DNA of 64,000 bases from Paraglaciecola marina (GTDB lineage Bacteria > Pseudomonadota > Gammaproteobacteria > Enterobacterales > Alteromonadaceae), in NCBI RefSeq assembly GCF_004360155.1, contig NZ_SAIS01000001.1, positions 496,001-560,000 of the forward strand. The letters run 5' to 3'. Each line of letters begins with the position of its first letter. Position 1 is the stretch's first letter. A model generated the notes under the pieces. The model made no database searches. It worked only from the letters and a program-made list of their open reading frames with translations, and was not told the origin of the DNA. The position numbers and the translations under genes are program-made. Below are positions 48,736-53,823 of this stretch, piece after piece.

Positions 48736-50025
48736 ATGTTAGATCCCAAATATTTACGTGGTGATATTCAATTTGCAGCAGCAAAATTACAAAGAAGAGG
48801 GTACACATTAGATACTGCTACCTTTACAGCTTTAGAAGAGAAACGTAAGTCGTTACAGATTAAAACCCAAGAGTTGCAAAATGAGCGTAATGTACGTTCA
48901 AAATCAATTGGTAAAGCCAAAGCATCTGGTGAAGACATTCAGCCGTTATTAGCTGAAGTAGGTAAATTGGGTGCCGAGCTAGACTCTGCAAAAGTAGAGC
49001 TAGCTGAGTTACTAGAAGAAATTCAAACCTTAGCGGCTGGTATTCCAAATATGCCAGATGATTCTGTACCAGAAGGTAAAGACGAAGACGATAACGTTGA
49101 AATCAGCAAATGGGGTACGCCCCGTGAATTCGACTTTGAAATTAAAGATCATGTTGATGTAGGTGCAGGGTTAAGTAAAGGCGTTGATTTTGACGCTGGC
49201 TCTAAACTCGCAGGATCACGTTTTGTGGTAATGCGCGGCCAAGTAGCTCGCCTAAACCGAGCCATAGCGCAATTTATGCTAGACCTTCACACCCAAGAGC
49301 ACGGCTACGAAGAAACCAATGTCCCTCTTTTGGTTAATGCAGAAAGCATGACAGGCACAGGCCAGTTCCCTAAATTTATGGGCGATGCATTTCACACCAA
49401 GCCAGCTACAGAAGAAGGGCAGGGCTTATCTCTGATACCGACCTCTGAAGTGCCGCTGGCAAATATCGCTCGTGATGAAATATACACGGCAAAAGAATTA
49501 CCTATAAAAATGACAGCGTTCACGCCTTGTTTTCGAAGCGAGGCAGGGTCTTACGGTCGAGACACCCGTGGTTTAATTCGTTTACATCAATTTGAAAAAG
49601 TTGAGCTAGTACAATTGGTAGAGCCTTCGACTTCATTTGATGCCTTAGAAGAGCTAACAAGCCAAGCTGAAAAAGTACTGCAATTACTTGAATTGCCTTA
49701 TCGTAAAGTGCTGTTATGTACCGGAGATATGGGGTTCGGTGCATGTAAAACTTACGATTTAGAAGTATGGTTACCCGCGCAAGACACCTACCGTGAAATT
49801 TCATCATGTTCTAACATGCTTGATTTCCAAGCTCGCAGAATGCAAGCAAGATTCCGCGGAGCACAAGGCAACAAACCTGAGCTATTACATACATTAAATG
49901 GTTCTGGCTTAGCAGTAGGCCGTACTTTAGTGGCTATTTTAGAGAATTACCAACAAGCTGATGGTTCGGTAACTGTGCCTAAAGTATTGCAACCTTATAT
50001 GGGCGGTTTGCAAAAAATAGGGTAA
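48736..50025 (+). CDS. serS: Seryl-tRNA synthetase
   Basis: Charges tRNA-Ser and tRNA-Sec. 429 residues: N-terminal coiled-coil arm (about 30-105), then class II motifs 2 ([26 protein letters not shown]) in two parts and 3 ([20 protein letters not shown]). The gene is intact, but its last 168 bases, from motif 3 onwards, have a diverged second copy 3.8 kb downstream. The present tail may therefore have been brought in by the downstream segment. Ends in a strong terminator. Confidence 0.97.
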
Positions 50026-50052
50026 TAAGTATTTTAGGTTTAACCTAATGAT

Positions 50053-50080
50053 AAAGGCGAGCTTAGGCTCGCCTTTTGTT
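50053..50080 (+). terminator. Intrinsic terminator of serS
   Basis: Stem AAAGGCGAGC / GCTCGCCTTT, loop TTAG, with Ts following, 28 bases after the stop codon. Confidence 0.93.
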
Positions 50081-50396
50081 TTTATTCACATTGTTTACTC
50101 ATTCGCTGCGTTTACATTTATTTACTTGGTACACTGAGAAAATCTCTTTTGCATAAACTTCCCTAGAAATAATCAGCATATTTGTGCACTAGTAGTGTCG
50201 GTCCCATGTATATGCAATATCTTGTGTAATCGCCGTATTTCTAAATCACTAAATCTCAGATTTAGAAAAACTGATTTCGTTGTAATAACTTAGAGCATAT
50301 GTCTAAAATGGCCTTAAGGATATATACGGCAACCTCCCGTGTTTAAATACGGGGGGCTATTAATATTGTTGGTCTTAATCAAGGATAGAGAAAAGT
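50081..50396. other. Leader region of the KAP NTPase gene, left part of the inserted segment
   Basis: No gene is seen. A strong hairpin CCTCCCGT / ACGGGGGG with an 8-base AT loop lies at 50333-50356, 40 bases before the KAP gene. Its form resembles the subterminal hairpins of IS200/IS605-type elements or a structured 5' leader. No integrase remnant was found. Confidence 0.5.
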
Positions 50397-51728
50397 ATGA
50401 AACTTATAGTTCCTCCAGTTTCAATTTCAACTAATGATGGATTCAAACCAGATATTGACATCTTTAGAAGAAAGCCTTTTGGCGAGAACCTATTAAATTT
50501 AATTCAAAATACAGATGACGAACTTGTGTTGGCACTTGACGCCCCTTGGGGTGAAGGAAAAAGCACATTTATAAGAATGTGGCGCGGCCTTTTAAATCAA
50601 AATAATATTCCAAATGTATATTTTGATGCTTTTGAAAGTGACTACCAATCGGACCCATTTTTGGCAATTTCTAGCCACATCTACCAGTTAATTGATAAGG
50701 GTGATGAGAAGACCCATAAAGAATTCAAGGAAAAAGCCACATCTGCTCTCAAGGTTGTTGGTAAAGCAAGCTTAAGAATCGGTATCAAAGCAATAACAGC
50801 GGGAGTTCTAGATGAAACGATTCTAGATAATACCGGAAATGTCAAAGATGCTTCGAAAGAGGCGTCAGATTTAGTTGATGGATTTATTTCCAATCAATTA
50901 GATAAAGCCGAAGATGATCGAAAAAATCTAGCCACCTTCAAAGAGTACCTTGCTGAACTTGGAGAAAAGCTCAGCTCCGAAAAGAAGGTAATATTCATTA
51001 TCGACGAGCTTGACAGATGTAAACCAAAATTTGCACTCGATTTAATCGAAAGTATTAAGCACTTGTTCTCGGTACCAAATATTACTTTTGTTCTAGTTAT
51101 GAATAGGACTCAACTTGAGGAGGCTGTCCGCAGTGAATATGGCTCTGGAGTAGATGCCGCCAGATACCTTCAAAAATTCGTGTCAATTTGGAGCTCGCTT
51201 CCAAAGCCGAGAGAGAACTACCAGTCAGTCCCAAAGATATATCTAAAAAACTGTTTGTCTCGCATGGGGTACCAAGTCCAAAACAGGAACCAACAATCAG
51301 CTGTAGAGGTCTTTGAGGAAATCATAACCTATTATGATCTATCATTGCGTGAAATCGAACAATGTCTAACTAACTTTGCAATAATTCAAAATGCTACCGA
51401 CAGTAACCTTAATACTGAATATTCTTGGATTTCAGTATTTGTTTCTGTCATAAAAGTTACGAAACCAGCTATATATAGAAAACTGTCCAAAAACAGTATT
51501 AGCTACGAAGAATTGGTTGCAGAGGCATCACTGGAAAAATTAAGTGTAGGTTCATGGGGACACATCCCAGAAGGACACCCGCTTAAGTGGTATCTTAAAT
51601 ATTTCATGAGTAGCGAAGAGGAGGCAAGTAAAATGGCATCTGAAACTAAAATGCTATCTGGCTTTCTAGAATCACGTGACGCCGTACAATCAGTTTGCGC
51701 GTGGCTCGAAGCCTTTCAGCGTGACTAA
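50397..51728 (+). CDS. KAP family P-loop NTPase
   Basis: 443 residues of the KAP group of STAND-like P-loop NTPases. Walker A is APWGEGKST (K55) and Walker B runs into the KAP hallmark IIDELDRCKP (about 201-210). The region between them, about residues 108-180, is a charged helical insertion where many KAP proteins carry membrane helices; here only a weakly hydrophobic stretch is present (about 120-138). After the NTPase core (FVLVMNRTQLEEAV) a helical C-terminal domain follows. KAP proteins occur in several anti-phage systems (for example QatA), which makes a defence role plausible, but no partner is encoded beside it. It is the only non-mobile gene in the segment bounded by the two serS tails. 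Confidence 0.85.
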   Translation: MKLIVPPVSISTNDGFKPDIDIFRRKPFGENLLNLIQNTDDELVLALDAPWGEGKSTFIRMWRGLLNQNNIPNVYFDAFESDYQSDPFLAISSHIYQLIDKGDEKTHKEFKEKATSALKVVGKASLRIGIKAITAGVLDETILDNTGNVKDASKEASDLVDGFISNQLDKAEDDRKNLATFKEYLAELGEKLSSEKKVIFIIDELDRCKPKFALDLIESIKHLFSVPNITFVLVMNRTQLEEAVRSEYGSGVDAARYLQKFVSIWSSLPKPRENYQSVPKIYLKNCLSRMGYQVQNRNQQSAVEVFEEIITYYDLSLREIEQCLTNFAIIQNATDSNLNTEYSWISVFVSVIKVTKPAIYRKLSKNSISYEELVAEASLEKLSVGSWGHIPEGHPLKWYLKYFMSSEEEASKMASETKMLSGFLESRDAVQSVCAWLEAFQRD

Positions 51729-52545: not shown

Positions 52546-53526
52546 TTAGGCGATTTTAAATAAGGTTTTAGCCTTTGCCATCCCTCGTATTCTTTGGTGG
52601 TGGGTGTGGTGTTTAAACTGTTGCATCATCTGCTCGCTGCCAACTGCGGTAGCAAAGTGTTGTTCAAACTCTGTAGTGAGGGTGAGCCATTGTTCACTGT
52701 CTAACCCCAATCTTTTTAGAATAGGATTTTGATGGTTATCTATGTGGCCTGCTTTATCTTCTCTGATACATCTGCCTGTTGTGTCTACTAGTTCACAGTA
52801 ATCTATTAAGCTGTAAGCAATGCCTTTAGGCATGTCTTGCCTGTGGTTACCGACAAAGGGCATAAGTGCTTTAGCTTGCTCACCTTTAATAAGTGATTGA
52901 ATTCTATTACGAATACTTGTGTGTTTGGATGTTTCAGGTGTTTTTTCCATCTTGGCTCGAATGGGGTTTAAGTCAACATAAGCCATGCAAGCTAATACGG
53001 CAGATTCATCTAATAGGGCTTGTGATTTAAATCTGCCTTCCCAGAAGCGTCCAGTACATCCATCTTCTTTGTTGGCCTCACGGGCAATGTATTCATTGAG
53101 ATTACGCATTAGCCAGCTAATGTCGTATAAGCGTTTTCTATAAACGGTTACTGTGTCTTCAAAGCTTAAACGCTCGCTTGTAGATAACGCCTCTCCTTTT
53201 ACATACTTTGCCGTTAAGAGTGTGCCTTTATAGAGCTTATGCCAACGGTCAATCACCTCATCCAAAGACCAGCTATCTGCTAAGTCTTTATCAACACACA
53301 GCACCACATGGGTATGGTTACTCATCACAGCATAGGCGCAAACATCAATGGCAAACACAGCGCCTAAAAACAATAACCTATCTTCTACCCAGCCACGCCT
53401 ATGTTCGTAACTTTGGCCACTTACGCTATCAACCCCACATAAAAACGAACGGCGAACACAACGAGACACACAATGATAATAAGGGGTATCAATTAAACTG
53501 ATTTGAGACTTACGAGGTTGAGGCAT
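52546..53526 (-). mobile_element. REP-associated tyrosine transposase (RAYT, Y1/IS200-like) gene
   Basis: 326-residue Y1 transposase of the IS200-like/REP-associated group. The N-terminus SLIDTPYYHCVSRCVRR, the metal-binding HUH-type motif SNHTHVVL (H71, H73), a probable catalytic tyrosine in NLNEYIAREAN (about Y146) and the GRFWEGRFKSQ block are typical. The C-terminal third (about 200-326) is the extension of long RAYTs. AAGGA lies ten bases before the ATG. The frame is intact. The gene is flanked by inverted GACACCCA-type ends, so it may be, or recently have been, active. Confidence 0.88.
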
Positions 53527-53583
53527 AACAGACCATCCTTGGTTGTAATAAGTCCTTAAAGTTTAGAAGAAAGTGAGTGTTTT

Positions 53584-53653
53584 GCCATTTTTTAGAATGG
53601 GTGTCATGATTAGCTATGGCCATTTTTTAGAATGGGTGTCATGATTAGCTATT
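53584..53653. repeat. 35-bp tandem duplication at the element's 5' side
   Basis: Two adjacent copies of a 35-bp unit (CCATTTTTTAGAAT then GGGTGTCATGATTAGCTAT), identical except for the last base. In inverse orientation each contains GACACCCATTCTAAAAAA, the counterpart of the motif on the other side of the transposase gene. Confidence 0.88.
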
Positions 53654-53655
53654 AT

Positions 53656-53823
53656 GGTGCACAAGGTAATAAGCCTGAATTATTACATACTTTAAATGGT
53701 TCTGGCTTAGCGGTAGGGCGTACCTTAGTGGCTATTTTAGAAAACTATCAACAAGCTGATGGCTCGGTGACTGTGCCTACAGTATTGCAACCTTATATGG
53801 GTGGATTGCAAAGAATAGGATAA
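53656..53823 (+). pseudogene. serS: Orphan 3' fragment of serS
   Basis: Encodes the last 55 residues of seryl-tRNA synthetase (motif 3 onward) plus stop, in perfect frame with no indel. It differs from the intact serS tail at 20 of 168 bases; 18 are synonymous and the other two give K-to-T and K-to-R. Homology begins abruptly at a GGT codon right after the 35-bp repeats. It has no start of its own and is not a functional gene. It marks the right boundary of the inserted segment. Confidence 0.92.

Follow-up and report, generated by a model that had tools for sequence, protein, structure and literature searches.

A displaced serS end and a putative integron attI site mark a variable gene slot downstream of serS in Paraglaciecola marina

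In the 64,000-nucleotide stretch of Paraglaciecola marina DNA studied here (contig NZ_SAIS01000001.1, positions 496,001 to 560,000; the whole stretch is called the window, its contig C1 and its genome G000), the tRNA synthetase gene serS is intact and is followed downstream by a second, displaced copy of its own last 168 nucleotides. Between the two lie an integron attI-like site, the gene of a KAP P-loop NTPase and an element resembling those of REP-associated tyrosine transposases (RAYT). We think it probable that an integron locus at serS, together with homologous shunting of serS ends, explains this arrangement.

Tail 1, the end of the intact gene, and tail 2, the displaced piece (Table 1), were returned by a repeat search to the exact nucleotide claimed in a first-pass annotation of this DNA, as a 168-nt pair in the same orientation with 88% identity. 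Their alignment begins at serS nucleotide 1123 and ends with the stop codon. The tails differ at 20 sites, 15 of them transitions, with one, two and 17 differences at the first, second and third codon positions; the codon alignment bore out the earlier count of 18 synonymous differences among the 20, the other two being amino-acid changes, and no stop codon was introduced. When one copy was simulated as evolving neutrally, not one of 1500 runs ended with two changed codons or fewer, at either of two transition biases; when selection acted on both copies, 701 of 1500 and 860 of 1500 runs did. The simulation thus supports the annotation's view that both tails diverged inside working serS genes before they came together, and it rejects a local duplicate left to decay.

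A local tandem duplication of the serS end, with KAP and RAYT inserted afterwards, is therefore very unlikely. Nor is tail 2 further from the relatives than tail 1: over the 20 differing sites, five of 11 relatives agree more with tail 2, three with tail 1, and three tie. What does speak for a duplication, and against our reading, is the tree, which joins tail 1 and tail 2 apart from all sampled relatives (ultrafast bootstrap, UFBoot, 87), a grouping that the annotation had named as refuting its proposal. This test has little power here, since the nearest sampled relative is only 84.5% identical (tail 2 is 84.5% and tail 1 83.3% identical to the best other serS of the genus), and a donor closer than any sampled genome would go unseen. 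Relatives that lack the segment and still carry the second tail were not seen: 20 of the 22 genomes of the genus have a single serS match, and the two with more are G000 and G011. Hairpins resembling the terminator of the window serS sit 3' of serS in several close relatives, as judged by eye; tail 2, unlike tail 1, has no terminator-like sequence 3' of it.

The stretch 50203-50370, downstream of the serS terminator, is 81% identical over 175 nt (E 9e-43) to the sequence just upstream of the intI gene of the same genome, which lies beside recD on contig C24 and encodes a 321-aa integrase (TIGR02249, 452 bits, cutoff 265). The two sequences agree up to a GTT, the usual cassette joining point, and differ beyond it; in the window the ATG of the KAP gene follows 26 nt further. 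On this homology we take the stretch to be a putative attI site, which the first-pass annotation had not noted. There is no intI beside it at serS, the intI of the genome being the one at recD. The end motif recurs in the corresponding slots of two other Paraglaciecola genomes: in G002 it reads GCT and stands just before an HNH-like gene, and in G004 it reads GTT and lies where the contig breaks off 3' of serS. A hairpin could be placed just before the GTT: across nine sequences 91.5% of its cells are paired, against 31-43% when the hairpin is slid, and seven of its 11 pairs have changed on both sides. Each of the three copies with intI that were checked has a LexA-like box (CTG-N10-CAG), whereas the eight copies lacking intI, that of the window included, have none; a single match in G855 is its serS terminator.

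Several results weigh against calling the site part of an integron. Two of five measures of the hairpin were reached by shuffled sequences (pairs changed on both sides in 34 of 500, further pair types in 150 of 500), and the hairpin had been placed by looking at the same sequences. An attC covariance model built from another genus, Pseudoalteromonas, gave no hit in the window at E<=5, and a search for attC after KAP by folding, hand scans and this model was negative throughout; the RAYT element occupies the place where attC would be. In the pieces fetched, no Paraglaciecola attC sites were found with enough confidence for a genus-specific model. One may suppose that the similarity at 50203-50370 reflects no more than a common promoter or repeat region and that KAP was never a cassette, an explanation compatible with the recombination part of our proposal. 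It would account for the missing attC; a hand scan of the slot up to tail 2 gave only hairpins of the RAYT element, and one sigma-70-like site was found where 1.8 are expected by chance. We nevertheless find it doubtful, as the similarity ends exactly at the GTT, a like junction occurs in the G002 and G004 slots, and the corresponding region in Pseudoalteromonas is followed by real attC arrays. On plasmids the attI region had no match, and in viral contigs IntI had two relatives, both weak. As a separate observation, a 74-aa open reading frame (ORF) at C1:731881-732051 (L190:1456-1680, L225) matches the 3' end of the C24 intI over 70 residues with 93% identity and is another displaced gene end in the window genome.

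The Pseudoalteromonas comparison covered 12 serS loci, namely that of G380, those of its closest relatives and a few more distant ones, and is no survey of the genus. An IntI search placed intI directly downstream of serS in three of them (G807, G384 and G785; L201, L203 and L204). Seven others have attI-like DNA and no intI in the stretch fetched (G850, G330, G855, G847, G831, G790 and, behind its displaced serS fragment, G380), and two (G392 and G116) have neither. With intI 3' of serS in three loci and attI-like DNA in seven, an integron locus occupies the serS flank in these bacteria. The attC model, built from six sites of G807 and G384, recovered its training sites and further ones, in arrays, in the same two genomes (L201, L203); it also found sites in G850, G847 and G855, which thus combine attC with attI-like DNA and have no intI in the 13 kb fetched. 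On the Paraglaciecola loci it gave one match, in G021 beyond the tus-like block. There, a run of small ORFs (L038:8289-11131) holds this attC-like match, of 30 bits, and is possibly a cassette array. Against a wide occurrence, the serS flanks of the 20 remaining Paraglaciecola genomes, some of them cut by contig ends, showed no IntI-like sequence, and neither did 80 further loci; to have an integron at serS is therefore not a general feature. A limited search of titles and abstract openings gave no report of an integron or island at serS and no paper joining integron, serS and Pseudoalteromonas; a study of Shewanella integrons names other neighbours (PMC9229058).

The window is not the only place where a serS gene has left a piece behind. 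In the family, 388 of 395 genomes matched serS, 25 of them more than once, with at most four candidates scored per genome; the 24 besides G000 were re-run. Displaced fragments were present in two of these, G011 and G380, and the other extra matches were distant paralogue-like ones or genes split by frame or contig. Among 108 Pseudoalteromonas genomes G380 alone has a fragment, G375 having a split gene. In a draw from the order that did not contain G011 and G380, 386 of 394 genomes matched serS, two of them more than once: G000, and G586 from another family, which carries an internal, decayed 351-nt serS piece on another contig. An intact serS with a 5'-truncated fragment of variable length downstream in the same orientation is thus present in G000, G011 and G380. 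Mobile records were searched as well. Viral contigs gave 35 loci with serS; a Phage_integrase search of 27 of their records was positive in 16, and in 23 loci the downstream ORFs and first bases after serS were viewed. The last 259 serS codons matched 96 plasmid and 23 phage records, of which 93 and 21 matched at a single place over 80% or more of the query, which leaves few candidates for a tail travelling alone.

In G011, a Paraglaciecola genome, the fragment runs from serS nucleotide 541 past the terminator, has its own terminator-like hairpin and lies about 420 nt from the intact gene. It is 88.0% identical to the serS of G012, with which it groups (UFBoot 73), and 83.9% to the intact serS of its own genome. 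The 5' part of this intact gene is 92.0% identical to G012 and groups with it (UFBoot 88), and the 3' part is 85.3% identical to G012 and groups with G018 (UFBoot 85). This is the pattern expected if a 3' end was imported and the native one displaced. In G380 the fragment starts at about nucleotide 527, carries three stop codons and is 96.5% identical to the serS of the same genome; the DNA 3' of it is what several relatives have directly after serS, which identifies the displaced piece as the old end. Between serS and this old end lies new cargo (L137:12313-13481), a 269-aa protein with an HExxH motif, seen by eye, and a 123-aa lipoprotein-like protein, neither with an NCBIfam match. A recombination breakpoint within the G380 serS was considered and rejected, the identity step between its 5' and 3' parts being no larger than in control pairs.

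These two cases have their weak points for shunting. The tree that unites both G011 copies was not rejected (approximately unbiased test, p=0.10), the site count was only 63 against 43 (p=0.065), and the fragment-free pair G018-G019 has a larger 5'/3' identity step than G011; in G380, as said, the step is found among control pairs too. Moreover, the 5' edges of the serS pieces in G011 (L036:1749), G380 (L137) and G586 (about nucleotide 551, L197), from three genera, fall within about 25 nt of each other, and this near-coincidence could mark a preferred site.

A preferred site is what a site-specific integrative element would provide, and the first-pass annotation had indeed likened the segment to prophage e14 at icd of Escherichia coli, an element with an integrase and a fixed core. 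According to such an explanation, an element would have entered serS with a replacement gene end and would have lost its integrase. The intact gene with its displaced end in the same orientation and the clustered edges are in line with it, and the serS case shares with icd a displaced gene end whose differences are mostly silent. Unlike at icd, however, neither an integrase nor a fixed core was seen at the window serS: none of the nine Phage_integrase (PF00589) places of the genome lies in C1:496001-560000, and the fetched G011 and G380 loci hold no IntI-like sequence, only this type having been sought there. The edge of tail 2, moreover, is the end of the RAYT element, and it lies at nucleotide 1123, far from those in G011 and G380, the latter two being close enough for a possible site near nucleotide 540. 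The short distance between the G011 copies and the internal position of the G586 piece on another contig do not suit an element either. We regard this origin as distinctly unlikely. The position of the tail 2 edge at the RAYT end and the different extents in the two other genomes point to homologous shunting and not to integration into motif 3, so that of the annotation's proposal the divergence in working genes is supported and the e14-like insertion at motif 3 is not. The window has no tRNA gene, and the sole Rfam match in 48400-54500 (MicX, 24.3 bits) is below its gathering score of 75.

The ends of the RAYT element were set by blastn against nine stretches of the same genome. Five places, one each in L140, L141 and L142 and two in L147, stop at what corresponds to 53613-53615, and three of those ends (L140, L147), when aligned with the second 34-nt unit of the window, match up to 53650; the copy in L148 ends at 53605 and that in L143 at 53526, and L144 and L146 hold left ends only. 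Tail 2 thus starts where the element ends, and an attachment core at its left edge was rejected. The annotation's reading of the content between the tails holds for KAP, which has its Pfam domain; the RAYT protein has no Pfam match and reaches 33.5 bits against NCBIfam NF047646 (REP-associated tyrosine transposase), below the cutoff of 80, so the name RAYT, which draws on this weak match and on repeated hairpin ends, is provisional. Two of the three left-end units in 51793-52602 scored as large hairpins.

Recombination between dispersed RAYT copies might also have joined unrelated pieces, one of them with a serS end. Copies are numerous in this genome and in related ones, one abuts tail 2, and the CstA, HemN, MsrA-like and TonB/DMT stretches further downstream have homologues at other places in relatives, among the matches listed. 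By itself, however, such recombination does not explain why serS, tail 2 and dsrC follow one another in this order, or what is seen in G011 and G380, and we consider it unlikely.

The segment with the two tails is part of a larger variable slot. The usual neighbour of serS, a gene pair which we take to be dsrC and tus-like from gene order and size, lies 3' of serS and convergent to it in relatives. In P. marina it begins at the last base of the window (C1:560000), a point missed in the first-pass annotation, so that all 13,975 nt from 50026 to 64000 lie between serS and dsrC. We compared serS and its downstream flank from 20 other genomes of the genus. Eleven of them have an interval of 7 to 322 nt (211 in G019, 11 in G018, and nine more distant genomes), and six have one of 3.6 to 7.3 kb with other cargo (G012, G002, G011, G021, G001 and G014); in G020, G004 and G003 contigs stop 487 to 580 nt past serS, before the interval ends, and in a further genome, G010, the contig stops after 54 nt. 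Three of the six filled slots carry defence-like cargo: in G011 a SIR2 protein resembling Dsr1 (E 9.4e-85); in G012, behind IS3-type transposase genes, a kinase whose best match is PD-T4-6 (1.3e-21) and a TPR protein that matches PDC-M71B (1.2e-12); and in G002 an HNH-called protein without a Pfam family that matches PDC-M68A (1.9e-21) and CBASS endonuclease effectors, together with toxin-antitoxin-like genes. The slots of G021, G001 and G014 share a common cluster, whose G021 member is a GMC oxidoreductase. The KAP protein of the window resembles the PADLOC hidden Markov model PDC-S20, matching it with residues 1-406 of its 443, which makes it a candidate anti-phage protein; the 28 plasmid records with KAP matches were all below 60% identity.

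We propose the following course of events, the most probable in our judgement; the explanations weighed here overlap, one of them concerning the integron part only, and the likelihoods attached to them are not meant to sum to one. In some of the Alteromonadales a chromosomal-integron locus would lie 3' of serS, reduced in P. marina to the attI-like site, with intI lost and KAP where the first cassette would sit; KAP may thus have arrived as a cassette. Related bacteria would swap the locus through homologous recombination in serS. A segment arriving with its own serS end, terminator, attI and KAP would recombine into serS, presumably by a single crossover, leaving the gene intact and pushing the resident end downstream as a 5'-truncated fragment. 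Tail 1 would accordingly be the incoming end, although the direction is unproven. The RAYT element would later have occupied the junction and set the present left edge of tail 2. This route follows the circle-and-shunt model by which displacement of rhs C-terminal tips was proposed to occur through homologous recombination (Jackson et al. 2009, PMC2935791).

The rhs case is alike in that an intact gene precedes same-orientation, 5'-truncated fragments of variable length left by incoming ends. It differs in that serS is an essential housekeeping gene, the incoming end adds no new domain, and the variable part is the cargo behind it. Many hotspots without integrases, with recombination in flanking core genes, have been described (Oliveira et al. 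2017, PMC5635113); they share with serS a variable slot between core genes and no integrase at the locus, whereas serS additionally shows a displaced piece of the core gene and an attI-like site. A chromosomal integron of Alteromonas, a related genus, has attC clusters at two further regions without integrase and toxin-antitoxin cassettes (PMC4119200), and so resembles our locus in having integron parts away from intI; what is described there, however, are attC clusters, whereas at serS an attI-like site stands without intI and attC was not found.

A bolder and rather doubtful extension is that of a split integron, in which the attI at serS would be served in trans by the intI at recD and capture defence genes, and the block of attI and cargo would move between species by homologous recombination through the serS end. 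The LexA-like box at the recD-side intI suggests that this would perhaps be SOS-driven. The tail of an essential gene would then act as a portable homology arm, and the near-identical 5' edges in three genera would mark a preferred break point. More generally, the locus illustrates how bacteria could trade accessory and partly defensive genes next to an essential one with no local integrase, leaving a readable footprint, and it suggests an integron site for which the enzyme gene may lie at another place in the genome. Displaced core-gene ends are possible markers for integrase-free gene gain in other genomes.

Table 1. Features of the serS region, in window positions
Feature	Position	Strand	Basis
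serS, intact, 429 aa; tail 1 is 49858-50025	48736..50025	+	Pfam PF00587 and PF02403; ORF
serS intrinsic terminator	50053..50076	+	promoter/terminator scan: 1 found against 0.2 expected
Putative integron attI-like site without intI; similarity stops at GTT 50368-50370	50203..50370	+	81%/175 nt homology, alignment, hairpin
KAP P-loop NTPase, PADLOC candidate PDC-S20, first-cassette position	50397..51728	+	PF07693 E 2.7e-44; PDC-S20 E 5.8e-96
RAYT/REP element (provisional name)	51793..53650	.	blastn against own genome, repeats, NF047646 below cutoff
RAYT left-end units, three in a row	starts 51793, 52084, 52327		
RAYT transposase-like ORF	52546-53526	-	
RAYT 34-nt unit, two copies	53584-53617 and 53619-53652		
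Tail 2, displaced terminal 168 nt of a serS gene, reading frame open to the serS stop	53656..53823	+	repeat search, alignment
Protein of 175 aa without a Pfam or NCBIfam family, patchily distributed in the family	53861..54388	+	profile searches; 35/196 family genomes
Remainder of serS-dsrC interval: S9 peptidase, CstA-like, HemN-like, ORFs resembling MsrA, TonB receptor and DMT transporter	54514..64000		last three by eye

The gene at 53861, directly behind tail 2, is found in genomes of the family with the window genome counted among its carriers, and in none of the seven other Paraglaciecola listed. The annotation had expected relatives in which serS is directly followed by this gene; none was seen among the five other carriers whose 1.5-kb flanks were viewed, these flanks, with ORF starts judged by eye, being without serS. 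A repeat-like module of about 400 nt occurs 3' of serS in several relatives (L034, L035, L036, L050 and L053), in both orientations inside some slots, and several draft contigs end within the region of this module downstream of serS.

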